Shown here piece after piece: positions 6,419 through 35,343 of a stretch of 36,364 nucleotides of DNA (position 1 is the stretch's first letter; every line of letters begins with the position of its first letter). Below the pieces are notes generated by a model. It was given only the letters and a program-made list of their open reading frames with translations. It was not told where the DNA came from and did not search any database. The stretch spans positions 1-36,364 of the forward strand of contig JANWWK010000071.1 of the NCBI GenBank assembly GCA_025056175.1. The letters are read 5' to 3'. The DNA is from Anaerolineales bacterium. GTDB lineage: Bacteria > Chloroflexota > Anaerolineae > Anaerolineales > Villigracilaceae. The position numbers and the translations under genes were made by a program.

Positions 6419-7396
6419 TCAGAGTGTGAGAATGTCTTTTGCCCATTCTCGCTCCTGCATATACCAGGCAATCAGTTGTTCGACGCCGCGGCGCATTTCA
6501 TATTCGGGAGACCAGCCGAGCAGTTCGCGGGCTTTGGTTACATCGGCCCAGTTGGTATACATATCGGCCAGGTTGGGCGGGCCATATTGCACAGTGGCTT
6601 TTTTGCCGGTCAGCTCTTCAATGAGGGTGACCAGGCCGTTGATGGTGATGACTTCATGTCCGCCGAGATTGATGATTTCGTAGCCCAGCGGTTTGAGCGC
6701 AGACAGAATTCCGCGGACGATGTCGTCAATATACGTGAATCCGCGCGATTGTGTGCCATCGCCGTTAATGCGCACCGGGCGGCCTTCGACGATCCACTGC
6801 ACAAAGCGAAACAGCGCCAGGTCGGGGCGTCCGGCTGGCCCATAAACGGTAAAGAAGCGCAGAACGGTGGTATCTATTCCGTACAGGTGGTGGTAACTGT
6901 GTGCCAGCACTTCGGCACTTTTTTTGCTGGCGGCATACGGTTGGAGCGGTTCACTGCTGGAGGCCGTTTCGGGCGTCGGGTAGGGTGGGTTGGCCCCGTA
7001 AATGCTGGAGGTGGATGCCAGGATAAATTTGCAGTTGCCATTTGCACGCGCCAGTTCGAGCATGTTGAGCGTGCCGATGACGTTCGATTCCAGGAAGACC
7101 CAGGGATTTTCGACGCTGTAGCGCACACCCGCTCGCGCCGCGAGATGAATGATGCCGTCGAAACGGACATGGCGCAGGCGTGCTTCTTCCAGGATTGCTT
7201 TTTGGGCAATATCGGCGCGCACGAAGGTAAATCCTGGTAAGGCAACCAGTTTTCGCAGACGATATTCCTTCATGCGCGGGTCATAGGCGTCGTTCAAGTT
7301 GTCTATGCCAGTTACGGCATGACCCTGCGCCAGAAGTGTTTCGGCGGTGTGTGCGCCGATGAAGCCGGCCGCTCCGGTCACCAGGTAGTGAGACAT
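6419..7396 (-). CDS. NAD-dependent epimerase, UDP-glucuronate 4-epimerase type
   Basis: Extended SDR of 325 residues with the NAD motif TGAAGFIG (residues 7-14), the catalytic Tyr154/Lys158 (YAASKKS) and ASTSSIYG before it. GIDNLNDAYDPRMKEYRL is typical of UDP-glucuronate 4-epimerases and close UDP-hexose epimerases, which provide UDP-galacturonate. The C-terminal substrate region includes RGFTYIDDIVRGI. It fits with the adjacent UDP-GlcNAc dehydrogenase in making acidic sugars for the surface glycan. Three copies of a 7-bp repeat lie just before its start. Exact substrate is inference. Confidence 0.85.
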   Translation of the reverse strand: MSHYLVTGAAGFIGAHTAETLLAQGHAVTGIDNLNDAYDPRMKEYRLRKLVALPGFTFVRADIAQKAILEEARLRHVRFDGIIHLAARAGVRYSVENPWVFLESNVIGTLNMLELARANGNCKFILASTSSIYGANPPYPTPETASSSEPLQPYAASKKSAEVLAHSYHHLYGIDTTVLRFFTVYGPAGRPDLALFRFVQWIVEGRPVRINGDGTQSRGFTYIDDIVRGILSALKPLGYEIINLGGHEVITINGLVTLIEELTGKKATVQYGPPNLADMYTNWADVTKARELLGWSPEYEMRRGVEQLIAWYMQEREWAKDILTL

Positions 7397-7398
7397 TG

Positions 7399-7419
7399 CA
7401 GTAATCAGTGTTCAGTCAA
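7399..7419. repeat. Short heptamer repeat array, three units
   Basis: Three consecutive 7-bp units (CAGTAAT, CAGTGTT, CAGTCAA) lie immediately before the epimerase start. They match the consensus of the larger arrays at 30444, 32467 and 33660, so this is a distant, minimal member of the same dispersed family. The copy number is low enough that chance cannot be excluded for this one alone. Confidence 0.5.
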
Positions 7420-14498: not shown

Positions 14499-14571
14499 GC
14501 CCCCATCGTCTAGCGGTCCAGGACGGAGCCCTCTCAAGGCTCAAACAGGGGTTCGAGTCCCCTTGGGGGCA
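14499..14571 (+). tRNA. tRNA-Glu (anticodon CTC)
   Basis: The cloverleaf folds cleanly: acceptor stem GCCCCCA with TGGGGGC, D arm containing the TCTAGCGGTCCAGGA loop, anticodon stem GAGCC/GGCTC closing the loop CTCTCAA (anticodon CTC, reading GAG), and T arm AGGGG-TTCGAGT-CCCCT. The discriminator is A and the CCA end is not encoded, so a nucleotidyltransferase must add it. Promoter and terminator flank it as a single-gene unit. Confidence 0.97.
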
Positions 14572-30134: not shown

Positions 30135-30365
30135 CTACCCCCCGTTGACTGCCGAAAACACTTTCACCTGGTCTTCGTCACGCACGATGGCCGTTTCGGC
30201 TTCCACCAGTTCGCCGTTCAGGGCGGTGAGCGCCACTTCGGGCAGAGGAATGCCGAGCTGCGCCAGAATCTCCCGCAGCGGCGTGGGTTCGCGCAGAGAG
30301 ATTTCCAGGCTGTGCTTGCGCCCCGGCATGTAAAAGGTCAGGTGCCCGCCGGCATATAGTTTCAT
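30135..30365 (-). CDS. MoaD/ThiS-like sulfur carrier protein
   Basis: A 76-residue beta-grasp protein ending in the diagnostic Gly-Gly (AVNGG), which is adenylated and thiocarboxylated to donate sulfur. ILAQLGIPLPEVALTALNGELVEAETAIVRDEDQVKVFSAV is the typical C-terminal half of MoaD/ThiS proteins. It follows the aldehyde ferredoxin oxidoreductase gene in the same orientation, suggesting a dedicated carrier for the dithiolene of its metal-pterin cofactor. The entire upstream leader is tandem repeat, so no Shine-Dalgarno is seen. Confidence 0.9.
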   Translation of the reverse strand: MKLYAGGHLTFYMPGRKHSLEISLREPTPLREILAQLGIPLPEVALTALNGELVEAETAIVRDEDQVKVFSAVNGG

Positions 30366-30369
30366 CGAA

Positions 30370-30441
30370 TTTGGTGATTGGGTGATTCGGTGATTTGGTG
30401 ATTTAGTGATTTAGTGATTGGGTGATTGTAGGATTGGTGAG
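30370..30441. repeat. 8-bp tandem repeat array
   Basis: Seven good and two degenerate copies of an 8-bp unit with consensus TTNGGTGA (plus strand) lie directly before the MoaD-like start codon. The array adjoins, but differs in period and sequence from, the heptamer array that begins three bases later. It occupies the position where the ribosome binding site would be. Confidence 0.85.
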
Positions 30442-30443
30442 CC

Positions 30444-30576
30444 CACTGTTCACTGATTACTGCTCACTGATGACTGTTCACTGTTCACTGCTCACTGATT
30501 ACTGTCCACTGTTCACTGCTCACTGCTCACTGCTCACTGATTACTGTCCACTGTTCACTGCTCACTGATGACTGAA
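30444..30576. repeat. 7-bp tandem repeat array, nineteen units
   Basis: Nineteen consecutive 7-bp units without a phase break, each (C/T/G)ACTG followed by two variable bases, mostly CACTGTT, CACTGCT and CACTGAT. The array runs into the 3' end of the aldehyde ferredoxin oxidoreductase gene: the last codons (SVISEQ) and its stop codon are made of repeat units. No spacers, so it is not a CRISPR. Confidence 0.92.
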
Positions 30577-32450
30577 ACCGCCCAATCCAGCCCCAACTGG
30601 CGCAGTTTTTCGGCGGTGGGGAGGCCGGTTTGGGGGTCCCAGCCCTTTTTCTGGTAGAGAATGGTCAGGGCTTGCTCGAACTCGTCGCGAGGCATGGCCT
30701 GTCCCTGTAACGCACCGTTTTGCAGGCCGGTAAAGAGGCGTTCGGGCAGGGTGTCGTCTTTGCGCGTAAATCCCTCGCGGGCGTTGAACAGCCGTGCCAG
30801 GTTGGTGGCGCGCTCGCCGATGGTCAGGGCTTCTTCCATCGTCAGGTTCCAGCCGGTGGCCGCGTTGATGGACAGAAGCACGTCTTCTGGCGGGATGAAG
30901 GAGCGCGGCGCCGGGCCGAAGAAGCAGAAGCCGGTCACTTTCTCCAGACTGTTCCACTTTTCCAAAATATAGAACATCTCCATCTTCTCTTCGCCCAATG
31001 AGCGCGGCGGCAGAGCCTGGGTGATGCCCAGCGGCGCGGCGGCCTTGAGTTGGATGGCCTCCGGCCTGGCGAAGGCGGTATCGTGCGCCACCACCAGGTG
31101 GTCGGCGCCGATTTCGGAGACCGCGTAGCCGATGCCGACGTTGTATTTGCCGCGCGGCTCGTGCATGGCGAGTTCCTGCCCTTTGACCTGCATGGCAAAG
31201 TAGGGCGCGTCGCCGCCGATTTTTTCCGCCGCGCGTTTGCTGCCCTCGGCCAGCAGGTCGCCGATGCCCTCGCGGCGGCCAATCAGTTCAATCACCTTGA
31301 GCATGGCCTCGGCGTTGCCGAAGCGCAGGTCGAGGCCGCCGGTGTCTGCGAGCGTGAGCAGGCCGTGTTCAAAGCATTCCATCGCAAAGGCAATCGTCGC
31401 GCCGCACGAGATGCTGTCGAGCATGTAGGCGTTGCACAGTTCGTTGGCTTTGGCAATTGCGTGGATGTCGCTAATGCCGCAGTTCGGGCCAAACGCGCCG
31501 ACGGTTTCGTATTCCGGGCCGCCGTAGGGCGATTCGCGCCCGTCCACTTTCACTTCGCGCTTACAGCGCACGGCGCAGGCGTAGCAGGTGCGCGAGGCGG
31601 TGAAGATTTCGCGCTCATAGGCTTCCCACTTCACCTCGTCCACATTCTCGAACGCGCCTTGCAGGAAGTTGCGCGTGGGCAGGATGCCGCCGGTATTGAG
31701 CGGCTCCACCAGGCCGGGCGTGCCGCGTTGCTGCAAATCCCAACTGAGCGGGTTTTCTTTGACCATTTTTGCCAGCTTGCCGCCGATGCCCATCAGCGTT
31801 TTGGCGTCGTAGGCCAGGCTTTGGTAACGCTGATTGCCGCGCACGGCGATGGCGCGCAGGTTTTTGCTGCCCATCACCGCGCCCAGCCCGTTGCGCCCGT
31901 TGAAGTGTCGCAGGTCATTCGTGATTCCGGCAAAGCGGACACGTTTTTCGCCCGCCGGGCCAATTTGCAGCACGCGGATTTTGTCATCGCCCAGCTCGCG
32001 GCGGATTTCTTCCTGCACCTCGGCGGTGAACCTGCCCCACAGATGACCGGCAGGCCGGATTTCCACCTGGTCACCGTTAACCCACAGATAGACCGGCGTG
32101 GGGGCTTTGCCCTTGACGACAATCGCTTCCCAGCCGGCCATCTTGAGTTCCGGCCCCCAGAACCCGCCCGCTTCCGATTCGCCGTAGCCGCCGGTCAGCG
32201 GGGAGCGCGCCGAGACGACGTAGCGCGTGGCGGTGGAGACGGGCGCGCCGGTCAGCAGACCGTTGGCAAAGACCAGCACGTTTTCCGGCGCGAACGGGTC
32301 GGTGCGCGGCGGAAGTTCGGTGAGCAGGATGTAGCCCGCCAGCGCCTTGCCGCCAGGGTACAGGCGGTAGAAGTCTTCGCTCAGGGTTTGGGTTTCGATG
32401 TTTCCGGTGGTCAAATCAACACGCAGGATTTTGGCTGTTGTTCCGTACAT
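30555..32450 (-). CDS. aor: Aldehyde ferredoxin oxidoreductase, tungsten-pterin family
   Basis: A 631-residue oxidoreductase of the AOR family, which oxidises aldehydes to acids with ferredoxin, using a tungsten or molybdenum bis-pterin and one 4Fe-4S cluster. N-terminal signature: AKILRVDLTTGNIETQTL and YPGGKALAGYIL. The cofactor-binding region is GFWGPELKMAGWEAIVVKG, and NDLRHFNGRNGLGAVMGSKNLRAIAVRG is a further signature. Cluster ligands are Cys289, Cys292, Cys296 (CYACAVRC) and Cys509 (GFCFFGP). GGAG precedes the ATG. The length is normal, but the last six residues and the stop are supplied by the heptamer array, so the native end may have been replaced. The metal and aldehyde cannot be read from sequence. 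Confidence 0.95.
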   Translation of the reverse strand: MYGTTAKILRVDLTTGNIETQTLSEDFYRLYPGGKALAGYILLTELPPRTDPFAPENVLVFANGLLTGAPVSTATRYVVSARSPLTGGYGESEAGGFWGPELKMAGWEAIVVKGKAPTPVYLWVNGDQVEIRPAGHLWGRFTAEVQEEIRRELGDDKIRVLQIGPAGEKRVRFAGITNDLRHFNGRNGLGAVMGSKNLRAIAVRGNQRYQSLAYDAKTLMGIGGKLAKMVKENPLSWDLQQRGTPGLVEPLNTGGILPTRNFLQGAFENVDEVKWEAYEREIFTASRTCYACAVRCKREVKVDGRESPYGGPEYETVGAFGPNCGISDIHAIAKANELCNAYMLDSISCGATIAFAMECFEHGLLTLADTGGLDLRFGNAEAMLKVIELIGRREGIGDLLAEGSKRAAEKIGGDAPYFAMQVKGQELAMHEPRGKYNVGIGYAVSEIGADHLVVAHDTAFARPEAIQLKAAAPLGITQALPPRSLGEEKMEMFYILEKWNSLEKVTGFCFFGPAPRSFIPPEDVLLSINAATGWNLTMEEALTIGERATNLARLFNAREGFTRKDDTLPERLFTGLQNGALQGQAMPRDEFEQALTILYQKKGWDPQTGLPTAEKLRQLGLDWAVSVISEQ

Positions 32451-32466
32451 GGGGGACTCCGTGGGG

Positions 32467-32525
32467 CAGTTGTCAGTTATCAGTGATTAGTGAACAGTTA
32501 TCAGTGAACAGTGAGCAGGGAGCAG
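32467..32525. repeat. 7-bp tandem repeat array, inverted orientation
   Basis: Eight units of CAGTNNN (plus strand) plus a partial one, in the opposite orientation to the arrays at 30444 and 33660. It fills most of the junction between the M24-like gene and the oxidoreductase. Bases 32495-32512 form a perfect 18-nt inverted match with 33675-33692. Confidence 0.85.
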
Positions 32526-32558
32526 TTTCTGGTTGTCTGTTGCGGGTGGAGGGCGGTT

Positions 32559-33632
32559 TTAGCGCTCCAGAATGAGGGGGCATGGCACGGGCGGCAGACC
32601 GGGCGTTTTGAGCCATTCTACCGGCCAGAGCGGGGTGGAGGTCAGGATTTGGTTTTCCGCTGCGCCGAGCAAAATCGTATCTTCCATCTTCGCGCCCTGC
32701 ACGGTGGGATTCCAGGCCAGGGCTTGCCCGGCGACCAGGACATCCGTTCCGCCGGGGGTGGCGAGGTACTCGCGCGGCTCGTAACCGGTTACCCCGCCCT
32801 GGTGGTGATGCTGCCATTCACCGGGGAAACCGGCTTCGGCGTAGGCGGCCTGGCCGATTTCGAGCAGTTCGCCGAGCGTTTTTCCGGGCCGCGTATGGGC
32901 GATGAATGCCGCATTGACGCGCGCTGCCGCGTGGGTTTTCTGCTCCAACTCGGCGGGGATTTTGCCAAAGTGTACCATGCGCGAGACCGAACAGACCAGC
33001 CCGAGCCAGCGTCCGCTCAGCACCAAAAGGGCATAGCGTTCCAGTGGTTTGGAGGTCGGCAGCGGGTGGCGGTAGCGGCGCTCATCGGTGGCAACCAGGT
33101 TGACAATCGGCTGGACGCCGCGTTTTTGGGCTTCACTGCCGAGCAGGGCTGCGATTTCGTATTCACTCATGCCCGGCTGGATGCCCTGCGCCGCGGCTGT
33201 GATGGCTTCCGCGCACAGACGGCCTAACGTCCGAAGGCGTTCTCCCTCCTGCGGCGTGAGATGCGCCCGCAGGCGGGCCATTTCGGCGCTCACGTCCTTC
33301 GCCGCGCCGAACGGCACATCGCTCACGATTGTTTTGCCAGCCAACAGGTCATTCAGTCCCTTGAGCGGGGTTTCCCAGGGCGAGATGACGAACTCCCAAC
33401 CTTGTTCAGCCAGATTTTCTTCTTCACGCAAGCGCGGGGCTTCGATGTTGTTGGTGGCAAGGTACGCTTTTTCGCGCGTTACGACCAGCGAAGCCGCGCC
33501 CTCGCTGGTGGCCGTGTTGACGTAGGAGGCTGCGCCTTCGGTGGCCCAGGCGAAACTGCTCACCCGCCGCAATAACAGGGCTTCGGCGTTGTGTTTTTCG
33601 AGCAGGGCGCGGAGCAGGAAGAGTTTGGACAT
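32559..33632 (-). CDS. M24-fold (creatinase/aminopeptidase P-like) protein, probable non-metallo form
   Basis: A 357-residue protein with an N-terminal creatinase-like domain (to about residue 120) and a C-terminal pita-bread domain: GIQPGMSEYEIAALLGSEAQ, then LVLSGRWLGLVCSVSRMVHFGKIP and HTRPGKTLGELLEIGQAAYAEAG. In metal-dependent M24 peptidases five ligands (Asp, Asp, His, Glu, Glu) are conserved. Here the stretch holding both Asp (residues 203-217) has neither, and the first Glu is replaced around Asn308 (LAWNPT). A His (275-277, HHHQGG) and the last Glu (Glu317, KMEDTIL) remain. It may be a metal-free hydrolase like creatinase or a binding protein. It lies between the racemase and oxidoreductase genes. 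Confidence 0.78.
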   Translation of the reverse strand: MSKLFLLRALLEKHNAEALLLRRVSSFAWATEGAASYVNTATSEGAASLVVTREKAYLATNNIEAPRLREEENLAEQGWEFVISPWETPLKGLNDLLAGKTIVSDVPFGAAKDVSAEMARLRAHLTPQEGERLRTLGRLCAEAITAAAQGIQPGMSEYEIAALLGSEAQKRGVQPIVNLVATDERRYRHPLPTSKPLERYALLVLSGRWLGLVCSVSRMVHFGKIPAELEQKTHAAARVNAAFIAHTRPGKTLGELLEIGQAAYAEAGFPGEWQHHHQGGVTGYEPREYLATPGGTDVLVAGQALAWNPTVQGAKMEDTILLGAAENQILTSTPLWPVEWLKTPGLPPVPCPLILER

Positions 33633-33659
33633 GGGAGACAGGTAGACAGGGAAAGGGGG

Positions 33660-33694
33660 AACTGGTTACTGATGACTGTTCACTGATAACTGAC
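33660..33694. repeat. 7-bp tandem repeat array at the larA 3' end
   Basis: Five units (AACTGGT, TACTGAT, GACTGTT, CACTGAT, AACTGAC) overlap the 3' end of the LarA-family gene. The final codons (SYQ) and stop are repeat sequence, as for the oxidoreductase. Same orientation as the array at 30444. Confidence 0.8.
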
Positions 33695-34942
33695 GTAGGG
33701 AATCGTCGAAACCGCATGTGGCAAGATGCCGACCGGCTCGCCGCGCGGCAGGGCGGCCAGGGTTTGGTCAATCATGGCCTGCAAATCGGAGATGGGGTTG
33801 AGCAGCAGGGCGCGCGCCAGGTCGTGATTCATGTCGGTATACAGATAGTAGTTCACAATCGCGCCATCGCGGGCAAATTGATAGGCTTTGTGCGGCCCAA
33901 TGCGGAAACCCTCGGCCTTGAACTTCTCGCGCACTTCAGCCAGCGACTTTTTGCCCAAAGTCCAGGCTTCGTAATGGTCGCTGCCACTCCCTTCGGGGCA
34001 GGCCGCTGTGATGATGACCGTCCCGCCGGGGCGGGCAATCAGAATGGCGTGGCCGAGGGCTTTTTGGGATTGGTAGACGTTAATGTCTTTGGGATGCCCG
34101 CCCGGCGAGGTGATGAGGAAGGCGTATTTCTGCGGCACGGCCACCTGACAGGCGCGGCGCGAATGCTCCAGCCCGGCGCGCACCACCAGGCGCGGGTCAC
34201 CGGCCAGGGCGGTGACGATGCGCCGCTGGTGGTTGAGAATGGCGTTCAGGGCCAGATGCACGCCGATTTTCGCGCCAATTTCCTCGATGTCCTGCCGCAC
34301 GGGGTTGGTCTCGTATTCGCCCAGTTGCGCTTCGGGCAGGCTCATCATGGCGTGGTTGGGGGCAATTGTCTTCATGCACGAGAGACCGATGGCTGCCGTC
34401 TTGACTCCGCCCGAAAACCCGGCGAACTGATGCGGTTCGACGTTGCCGACCACGATTTTGAAATCGGATTCGGCATAGGCGCGGTTGACCCAAACCGGCG
34501 TGCCGCGCGAGGTCTCGCCCAGAAAGGTGAGCAGGCTATCGTCTTGCGAATCGTGCGAAACCACGCGATAGCGGGCGAGAATCTCCGCCGGTAAAATGCC
34601 GGGGAACTCGTCTGGCGTCATCGGTGGGTGGGTGCCGACGGCGATGTAGAAGGTAATGGCCGAATCGGGGATGCCGAGGGCGGCCAGCTGCTCCATCAGC
34701 GGCGGGAGCAGGTGTTCGTGCGGAACGGGGCGAGTCTTATCGTTTACGGCAATTGCTACGCGCTGCGCGCCGCGAAAATCGTCCCAGCGAATCTCACCGA
34801 GCAGATGGTCGAGCGCGTCTTCCACCGCCCGGCGCGGGTCGGCGGCAGGGGCCGGGTTGGGGGCTTCGATGATGTGGACGGGGTATTCGTCGGGGATGTG
34901 GGCGGTGAGGGTGGTTTTGCCGTAAGGAATGTGGATTTGCAT
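33680..34942 (-). CDS. LarA-family nickel-pincer racemase/epimerase
   Basis: A 420-residue protein of the lactate racemase family, which uses a covalently bound nickel-pincer nucleotide to racemise 2-hydroxy acids. All key residues are seen: His105 (GTHPPMT), His171 and Lys181 (EPHQFAGFSGGVKT) and His197 (APNHAMM), at nearly the same positions as His108, His174, Lys184 and His200 of Lactobacillus plantarum LarA. NDKTRP in the N-terminal domain is also conserved. The substrate may not be lactate, since family members act on other hydroxy acids. The cofactor genes larB, larC and larE are not in the window. The start at 34942 is two bases after the vapC stop; an upstream GTG-VI extension is possible. 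Confidence 0.9.
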   Translation of the reverse strand: MQIHIPYGKTTLTAHIPDEYPVHIIEAPNPAPAADPRRAVEDALDHLLGEIRWDDFRGAQRVAIAVNDKTRPVPHEHLLPPLMEQLAALGIPDSAITFYIAVGTHPPMTPDEFPGILPAEILARYRVVSHDSQDDSLLTFLGETSRGTPVWVNRAYAESDFKIVVGNVEPHQFAGFSGGVKTAAIGLSCMKTIAPNHAMMSLPEAQLGEYETNPVRQDIEEIGAKIGVHLALNAILNHQRRIVTALAGDPRLVVRAGLEHSRRACQVAVPQKYAFLITSPGGHPKDINVYQSQKALGHAILIARPGGTVIITAACPEGSGSDHYEAWTLGKKSLAEVREKFKAEGFRIGPHKAYQFARDGAIVNYYLYTDMNHDLARALLLNPISDLQAMIDQTLAALPRGEPVGILPHAVSTIPYVSYQ

Positions 34943-34944
34943 AA

Positions 34945-35343
34945 TCACACCCACAGGATGCTGATGTCTTTTTGTAAAGACTCGAACTCTTTGTCACCGG
35001 TCACCAGGGGCGCATGGTAGAGAGCGGATAGTGCGGCAGCAAAGCAATCGGCATAAGAGAGCTTGCCCCTGACCTTGAAAATTGCCGCCTGGCGGGTCAG
35101 CGCCCAATCGGGGTTGATGATTTCGATGCCCATCCGGTGAATTTCCTCTACATATCGGTCAGCGACTTCGGGGGAGTTGGAGCGCGCAATCGCGTACCAG
35201 ACTTCGCCTAAATTCACAACAGACATCATCAGCGCATCACCTTTCTCGAGGGCGCTCTCCATGATTTGGCGGATGGTGTCTGCGCCAGGTTCGTCTTCAA
35301 AAAAAACCATTAGCGCGTAAGCATCGAGGACATGGGTGGTCAC
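34945..35343 (-). CDS. vapC: VapC-type PIN-domain toxin
   Basis: A 132-residue PIN-domain ribonuclease. The acidic residues of the active site are present: Asp7 (VLDAYALM), Glu47 (NLGEVWYA), Asp99 (YADCFAAAL) and Asp117 (TGDKEF). VapC toxins cleave RNA, often tRNA, when the antitoxin is lost. It starts 4 bp after the antitoxin gene. The following LarA gene begins 2 bp after its stop, so read-through from the toxin-antitoxin promoter into the metabolic genes is likely. Confidence 0.9.
   Translation of the reverse strand: MTTHVLDAYALMVFFEDEPGADTIRQIMESALEKGDALMMSVVNLGEVWYAIARSNSPEVADRYVEEIHRMGIEIINPDWALTRQAAIFKVRGKLSYADCFAAALSALYHAPLVTGDKEFESLQKDISILWV

Follow-up and report, generated by a model that had tools for sequence, protein, structure and literature searches.

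Heptamer arrays at gene junctions of an Anaerolineales bacterium mostly share one polarity and may be arms of small convergent inserts

Heptamer repeats in the spacers of bacterial genomes have so far been separate curiosities, each with its own functional guess (STRR, TAACTGA, and the quadruplex-forming GGGAATC). The long simple sequence repeats of Mrazek, as relayed by citing papers, and the STRR heptamers of cyanobacteria reportedly form arrays in spacers and have a patchy distribution. To our knowledge, both are direct arrays, and we know of no polarity or pairing rule for either. Here, we describe arrays of 7-bp units with an ACTG core (CAGT on the opposite strand) that occur at gene junctions in a contig of an Anaerolineales bacterium (Chloroflexota; contig JANWWK010000071.1 of assembly GCA_025056175.1). 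This whole stretch of 36,364 nt is called the window below, and the same arrays were followed through the rest of the genome and through other genomes (labels with G, C, and L denote genomes, contigs, and loci, respectively).

Among the closest described systems, TAACTGA arrays are reported in passages of MacGregor (2015; PMC4679880) from Beggiatoaceae, cyanobacteria, and some Bacteroidetes, mostly in the ACTG sense before start codons. According to the same passages, a single exact unit was searched for, sets in the main genome have two to six copies, one inverted repeat is described, lengths differ in 7-nt steps between two Cyanothece strains, and heptamers are the commonest long repeats. 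The unit is also treated in part of a Thiomargarita paper (PMC4853749). As far as the passages on TAACTGA go, the arrays here are alike in being tandem and mostly intergenic ACTG heptamers, in having, for the arms at 5′ ends, the ACTG sense before starts, and in encoding the peptide LSVISYQ in the CAGT sense. They differ in that the triplet varies, CAGT arms at stops are as common, and opposite arms are convergent (PMC4679880). The exact TAACTGA unit is not the rule here, where 24 triplets are found.

For the GGGAATC and GGGGAYT heptamers of Xanthomonas and Nostoc, described as being of unknown function in excerpts of Rehm (2015; PMC4692102), the repeat strand lies nearer its 5′ open reading frame (ORF) regardless of gene direction (means of 28 vs. 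160 nt). These excerpts also describe heterogeneous units, a scarcity of divergent sites, and convergent pairs that number 70 in one species and 75 in another. The arrays here share with this type, as excerpted, the strand nearer the 5′ ORF (26 of 28 arrays; 23 of 25 in three relatives) and the convergent pairs (190 to 1 and 368 to 16). However, the core in those excerpts is G-rich and quadruplex-forming, whereas the CAGTNNN units have no G runs, such that a quadruplex cannot be the common cause. Repetitive extragenic palindromic (REP) sequences and REPINs (GTAG and CGTC families) are, in the relevant part of PMC3733652, dispersed intergenic hairpins and oriented dimers that are reported also in Chloroflexi. 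Unlike the elements in that part, most sites here have no GTAG/CGTC tag, the arms are tandem repeats, and there is no clear link to REP-associated tyrosine transposases. Part of a DNA-structure survey (PMC4060949) also belongs to the related literature. A literature search, which had subscription literature outside its scope, found no paper on CACGAAGGACACGAAG and, among the titles listed, none on bacterial genome repeats for ACTG/CAGT strings or the GTCATTGCGAGG hairpin and none describing these arrays for Chloroflexi with heptamer or small inverted repeats. The arrays are a known kind of spacer repeat, of which the pattern of polarity and pairing was earlier reported only in pieces. What is new is the variable triplet, the convergent polarity, the presence of arrays where relatives' genes overlap, and the occurrence of other families at one orthologous junction.

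A single rule holds at both ends of genes: the CAGT strand reads from the gene outward into the spacer. In the sense of the gene strand, CAGT arrays at stop codons often contain the stop and reach 20, 13, or 6 nt into the gene, or begin 1–4 nt past it, and ACTG arrays lie 1–17 nt before start codons. Among the testable arrays of this genome (i.e., those with a gene called on both sides; four in-gene arrays and two with one neighbor were set aside), 26 of 28 keep the rule, with 11 arms at 5′ ends in the ACTG sense ahead of the start codon and 15 arms at 3′ ends in the other sense. The exceptions are L171:1026 and L178. In three order-level relatives with arrays that were not chosen for pairing (G054, G041, and G038), the rule is kept by 23 of 25 (two inside genes and five without a neighbor set aside). 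For all 19 fetched relatives, most of them chosen for pairs, the number is 59 of 69 (16 inside genes and six without a neighbor set aside). In other organisms, 56 of 80 arrays obey and 24 do not, with seven inside genes and 19 without a neighbor set aside; this set covers 77 of 80 loci (three were too short) among at least 118 stretches, and its gene calls on 8-kb pieces are crude. Polarity at gene edges was absent from an earlier note on this DNA, which had recognized the arrays and missed this main feature.

The same polarity is found where two arms face each other. In 301 genomes of the phylum, two-armed arrays that read CAGT then ACTG have 190 matches in 17 genomes, whereas the reverse order has one match in one genome, whatever the neighbors; matches overlap, so there are fewer sites than matches. 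One genome (G222; loci L271–L275), a distant phylum member that is 74% complete, contributes 115 of the 190. In 50 genomes picked for arrays of at least eight units, mostly from other phyla, there are 368 forward matches in 24 genomes vs. 16 reverse matches in seven. The CAGT-left/ACTG-right order is near-absolute in the phylum, strong elsewhere, and weak in some cyanobacteria. The fetched two-armed loci, mostly chosen for forward order, have this order in 30 co-directional, two convergent, and seven divergent spacers, and six times inside genes. Because the forward order is also found between divergent starts and inside genes and the reverse order is almost absent, the stop and start codons of the neighbors are unlikely to be the cause, and selection for stop codons is likewise an unlikely source of polarity. 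In this genome, arms pair across the spacer above chance (4 of 27 armed spacers; odds ratio 9.1, p 0.004). Gene cassettes armed at both gene ends were also considered and show no excess over chance (1 of 28; p 0.54).

We read these arrays as the arms of small convergent inverted inserts at gene junctions, a reading to which we assign a probability of about 0.5. Such an insert would have the form 5′-(CAGTNNN)n – filler – (NNNACTG)m-3′, in which n or m is often reduced to nothing. One-armed arrays would then be derivatives of two-armed inserts, and the polarity of a lone arm would still tell its original side of the spacer. Which junctions receive an insert, whether formed there or landed, may be a matter of chance, and an insert would persist where it is tolerated by the final codons, the region of the start, or a linker of the protein, mostly in co-directional spacers. 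The arms may change length in 7-bp steps and in larger blocks via slippage or recombination, and the inserts may give altered C-termini their stop codons. When both arms survive, a hairpin in the operon mRNA would be expected. A regulatory role is unnecessary to explain the arrays of the window, which are listed here with the adjacent genes.

7399–7416, minus strand: array of three units with ACTG in the coding sense, lying 2 nt upstream of the start codon of the gene at 6419–7396; fits the polarity rule
30135–30365, minus strand: small ThiS/MoaD-like gene (PF02597, E 3.6e-9), downstream of the aldehyde ferredoxin oxidoreductase (AOR) gene
30366–30554, minus strand: AOR-MoaD spacer of 189 nt, almost all repeats
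30369–30437, minus strand: octamer array (ACCNAATC in the coding sense) that makes up the right part of the 189-nt spacer
30445–30574, minus strand: 19-unit heptamer array, CAGTNNN on the AOR coding strand
30555–32450, minus strand: AOR gene (PF01314, PF02730)
32467–32526, minus strand: heptamer array, ACTGNNN on the coding strand with some cores broken, ending 16 nt before the AOR start codon
32559–33632, minus strand: M24 metallopeptidase-like gene (PF00557)
33661–33692, minus strand: 5-unit array, CAGTNNN on the coding strand, supplying the last codons and the stop of the LarA-like gene
33680–34954, minus strand: LarA-like gene (PF09861), protein end ..STIPYV/SYQ within the array

As the window is written, the ACTG core with a period of 7 forms the 19-unit and 5-unit arrays, and the other two arrays have the reverse complement core. 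These are the three CAGT units at 7399–7416 and the array at 32467–32526, which has 3 + 3 exact cores (32467–32484 and 32495–32512) or seven CAGT cores when single missing units are bridged. The common ACTG core that the earlier note gave to all four arrays thus applies directly to those at 30445 and 33661, whereas those at 7399 and 32467 have it on the other strand. The array at 32467 has broken cores. The variable positions number three rather than two, and the arrays sampled from this genome use 24 of 64 triplets. Its four period-7 arrays are nevertheless real. When 400 windows were simulated with matched dinucleotide content, runs of at least three units appeared at 0.005 per window and runs of at least four units never did; the arrays are confirmed to be far beyond chance and are not unique to the window. 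Gene calls place all four at gene junctions, as had been proposed. The three larger arrays are also detected by Tandem Repeats Finder, which gives a higher score to a period of 42 bp (six units) within the 19-unit array.

The first 20 nt of the 19-unit array supply the AOR C-terminus (protein end ..SVISEQ) and stop codon. On its other side, the heptamers adjoin the octamer array (GTGATTNN and ACCNAATC on its two strands), which ends 3 nt before the MoaD-like start. The 4-unit pattern of this octamer has no second match elsewhere in the genome. The GATTAGGN arms in the pdh spacer of G104 look like the same family.

Relatives provide a view of this junction with no array. A MoaD-like gene stands beside a close AOR in four relatives' loci (AOR protein identity 69–78%). 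The AOR stop overlaps the MoaD start in three of these: the shared letters are ATGA in L204 and L213 and TGATG in L205. In L203, the two genes are separated by a spacer free of arrays. The junction here has 189 nt of repeats vs. overlapping genes in three of four loci of same-genus relatives. L206, with the same ATGA overlap but no MoaD match, was set aside, and L215, which lies beside a 55% paralogue, was left out of this comparison. The LarA-like protein ends with ..STIPYV/QE in L206 vs. ..STIPYV/SYQ here, where the last codons are those of the array. The spacer between the peptidase and AOR genes is 17 nt in L207 vs. 108 nt here, and is longer in L203 and L206, without arrays. The five-unit pattern has 79 matches in this genome, and any match is found in only one of ten genus mates, two of which are only ~62% complete and one of which has 11 reversed-control matches. 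In 61 genomes, this pattern (both strands) has 1263 matches in 27 genomes, and the reversed control has 98 in 14; part of the latter come from CAGTCAN units, which contain GTCA, and part from other heptamer families.

Across the genome (3,571,847 bases in 95 contigs), four ACTG cores at period 7 have 116 matches (83 forward and 33 reverse), and the reversed-pattern control of four units has none; the arrays are over-represented genome-wide. Genes were called with our own hexamer method in 405 kb of sequence (90% coding), made up of the window and 32 other stretches, which together take in 100 of the 116 matches (those listed) and eight control contig starts. When an array is defined as at least four units with single missing units bridged, these 33 stretches have 34 arrays, of which 30 lie between genes or at gene ends and four inside genes; in random draws, a 35-bp piece falls entirely in non-coding DNA 8% of the time. 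For runs of at least four exact units, 28 touch spacer (41 kb) and four are within coding sequence (364 kb). The claim that arrays avoid coding cores is thus correct as a tendency, but not for the four in-gene arrays. An enrichment at gene 3′ ends is not observed: among the 28 arrays with both neighbors called, the closest gene end is a 3′ end for 15 and a 5′ end for 13. By spacer type, arrays occupy 22 of 134 co-directional, one of 19 convergent, and none of 28 divergent spacers here, and 37 of 125, two of 23, and one of 18, respectively, in the relatives.

Among the in-gene arrays, the one in LigA encodes residues 617–625, a linker between the HHH (to 601) and BRCT (from 626) domains, and that in CarA encodes residues 178–188, just ahead of the GATase domain (from 195). 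The other two are within domains, in a methyltransferase and a molybdopterin oxidoreductase. In the relative G213, an array encodes residues 160–171 of the E2 subunit, between the E3-binding and catalytic domains. G173 has AAAGTCG heptamers just downstream in its pdh region (L312), apparently in the E2 gene, at the place where the E2 linker of G213 has CAGT heptamers, so linkers may be overwritten by different dialects as spacers are. Several contigs start or end within ~150 bases of arrays (L169, on contig C2 at bases 5–50; L285; L289; L292; L294; also in relatives G054 and G041), suggesting that assemblies may break at arrays and that array counts may be lower bounds.

The composition of the units was compared in 37 arrays. 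Only 24 of 64 triplets are used, and eight of them make up 146 of the 175 units. The second triplet position is a pyrimidine in 162 units, and the commonest unit is ACTG-ATA (33 of 175), which is TAACTGA by rotation. Neighboring units are identical in 36 of 138 cases (33 of 500 shuffles have as many), and the 19-unit array repeats at a six-unit lag (6 of 12). A turnover by slippage or recombination, as earlier proposed, agrees with this 42-bp block duplication, although slippage does not explain the polarity. Taken together, the arms seem to have followed one rule of construction, each largely on its own, with later changes by slippage. Ku was found in two of 61 genomes, both with few arrays, and is absent here, which speaks against a Ku-dependent end-joining scar. 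A purine-rich left arm was dropped as a general rule (in other families, 16 of 21 arms are over 0.5 and three under; among CAGT arms, 20 of 36 are over and 14 under). This genome also has other heptamer-armed hairpins, at L183:4216–4320, L187:7137–7173, and L190:3091–3134, from the CGTAANN, CAGAATN, and AATGCAG families.

The spacer between pdhA and pdhB allows one orthologous junction to be compared among genomes. It was sought in the best 30 of 44 matching genomes (61 searched) and read in 29, one having no start motif; G036, with a spacer of 18 nt, was set aside, leaving 28 spacers of at least 30 nt (200 shuffles each). Folding is beyond chance in most of them, with z below -2 in 26 and below -3 in 19; the remaining two are G372 (z -1.45) and G015 (73 nt, z -0.33). 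In comparison, z falls below -3 in 17 of 53 array-free co-directional spacers of 50–180 nt that were taken from ten family relatives (Fisher p 0.0025; this set had 60 shuffles and comes partly from other genomes). Arms made of tandem repeats are present in 18 of the 28 spacers and belong to seven families (assigned by eye), each with a single polarity.

CAGTNNN: two genomes
9-mer ACACAAAGG: four genomes
Octamer ACAGGTAN: four genomes, including G372
AGAGNNN: three genomes, two of them identical
ATTCGAT: three genomes
GACNNNN: one genome
GATTAGGN: one genome

AGAGNNN and GACNNNN recur in two further genomes. Of the spacers without tandem arms, five have a long GTCATTGCGAGG hairpin, four have another hairpin (including this genome), and one has none. 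The hairpin beginning with GTCATTGCGAGG or a close sequence was seen at L326, L323, L334, L335, and L320 (five genomes of three genera). At this junction, the architecture is kept and the sequence differs. This pattern may be explained either by selection for a hairpin or by repeated occupation of a tolerant site.

The arrays could be ordinary long simple-sequence repeats that grew by 7-bp slippage from chance seeds and were kept from genes by purifying selection, an explanation that we consider possible but rather unlikely. It agrees with the 42-bp block period in the 19-unit array, with the enrichment of arrays in spacers, and, in passages of MacGregor (2015; PMC4679880), with the 7-nt steps between Cyanothece strains and the rank of heptamers as the commonest long repeats. 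However, slippage predicts no polarity, whereas the observed orders stand at 190 to 1. Slippage should also let all seven positions drift, but ACTG stays intact and the variation is confined to three positions with a limited set of triplets (partly an effect of selection, as arrays were found by intact cores). It also needs a pre-existing spacer, which three of the four relatives' loci lack between AOR and MoaD. Slippage survives as a mechanism of length change, and the polarity data speak against its simple form. Fixed polarity, dispersal, and abundance in some species with near absence in genus mates would instead suit a dedicated mobile element of the REP or miniature inverted-repeat type, moved by a tyrosine (Y1) or other transposase, and REP dimers are likewise oriented pairs in the relevant part of PMC3733652. 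Words of four units common to different loci are somewhat above chance, and the number of Y1_Tnp matches is weakly correlated with that of arrays (rho 0.27, p 0.036; 61 genomes, not corrected for kinship). We nevertheless regard such an element as improbable: a single Y1_Tnp match is found both in this genome, which has 79 matches of five units, and in the richest relative, which has 452, interiors are hardly shared, and target duplications are missing at most sites. The expected tags are also rare, with GTAG beside the left arm at two and CTAC beside the right arm at five of 47 sites (~1.3 expected each) and CGTC/GACG at none.

That junctions need a stem-loop for processing, stability, or attenuation of mRNA, and that any hairpin family serves, is suggested by the pdhA-pdhB spacers, which fold beyond chance in 26 of 28 genomes despite differing sequence and more so than other co-directional spacers. 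The scarcity of arrays in divergent spacers points the same way. This explanation is doubtful to us because 20 of 23 array spacers here fall short of z -3, G015 has 73 nt at the pdhA-pdhB junction with no hairpin and G036 only 18 nt, and the polarity is the same within genes and in divergent spacers. Sites of translational control read by a protein (S1, Csp, or Csr), as proposed for TAACTGA upstream of starts, would agree with the rule-obeying ACTG-sense 5′ arms, whose ends lie 1–17 nt ahead of the start codon. However, arms in the opposite sense are as frequent at stop codons and occur also between convergent genes, some arrays lie inside proteins, and genus mates are nearly without arrays, so that such sites appear very improbable as the general explanation.

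Several observations weigh against reading the arrays as arms of convergent inserts. The AOR copies that define the empty site are only 69–78% identical, such that intermediate changes are unseen, and L213 is the second copy in its genome. An array with a single arm could be an object in its own right. The reverse order does occur, with its 16 matches in seven of the 50 genomes all coming from cyanobacteria (G375, G379, G381, G386, G387, G388, and G414, often with ACTGTTG/ACTGTTA units); both orders are equal in three of these and the reverse is commoner in one. Pairs with the core read backward (GTCA) match as well, 18 in three and seven in two of the 301 genomes, and 103 in eight and 15 in four of the 50 genomes (64 in G422), which indicates that other cores pair too. 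The many GTCA-core pairs in some cyanobacteria suggest further families with other cores.

The sequences also show little sign of simple copying between arms or between loci. Words of three units common to different loci number 6 vs. 7.9 (shuffled within arrays) or 5.4 (pooled), and words of four units 4 vs. 1.5 (35 of 500 within-array shuffles) or 0.2 (1 of 500 pooled). Whole-array copying between loci was rejected on this absence of a 3-unit excess and the weak to moderate 4-unit excess. Facing triplets match perfectly in 19.6% vs. 13.6% when shuffled (9 of 500 as high), and facing single bases in 57.5% vs. 51.1% (3 of 500); fold-back copying of one arm from the other was rejected, as this match is only modestly above chance. 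No flanking duplication is found at 38 of 47 sites, with 2 nt at eight and 4 nt at one. Interiors are little shared (longest common words in 40 interior pairs, 5.15 vs. 4.28 shuffled; one pair at 8 or more), and together with the missing duplications this leaves a classical mobile element unsupported. Outside these 40 pairs, two two-armed sites of one genome, G292:C236:31448 and C262:3623, share the interior word GCTAATTCCTTA on opposite strands. Finally, strong folding (z below -3) is limited to three of the 23 array spacers in this genome (L184, L172, and L192). L181 (z -3.95) is also strong but was classed as array-free because its array runs into a gene, and the AOR-MoaD spacer has z -0.47. 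A role in RNA folding, suggested by the earlier note, thus suits a few two-armed spacers but not most arrays, and a hairpin function for all arrays is unsupported in this genome.

Beyond the reading as convergent inserts, we tentatively propose, as an idea with the odds clearly against it, that convergent inserts with tandem arms form a single widespread class that has many dialects. These would be written by a sequence-specific, two-ended process that extends the sides of a gap outward from the flanking genes, with short repeats in which the core is fixed and the rest is loose (a repeat-synthesizing polymerase or reverse transcriptase could do this), and then joins them without Ku. Junctions would repeatedly be overwritten by the current dialect. 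The dialects might include CAGTNNN, ACACAAAGG, ACAGGTAN, AGAGNNN, GACNNNN, ATTCGAT, and GATTAGGN here, and TAACTGA and GGGAATC elsewhere. With polarity and convergent pairing across unrelated cores, and with different families at the pdhA-pdhB junction, a common origin becomes testable. The common anatomy argues against any explanation that depends on one particular sequence, such as a quadruplex or a single binding protein. Identifying a maker would reveal a general source from which new spacers, C-termini, and domain linkers arise.

In the window and seven loci, Rfam gave nothing above gathering score at the arrays and only a tRNA gene at 14499–14571 of the window (plus strand; RF00005, 62.6 bits). 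At L258:7195–7265, downstream of pdhC, there is a short palindrome (AAACTTCCGAAGTC..GACTTCGGAAGTTT) with further matches on both strands in six of seven genomes searched, which is probably a dispersed terminator-like hairpin.

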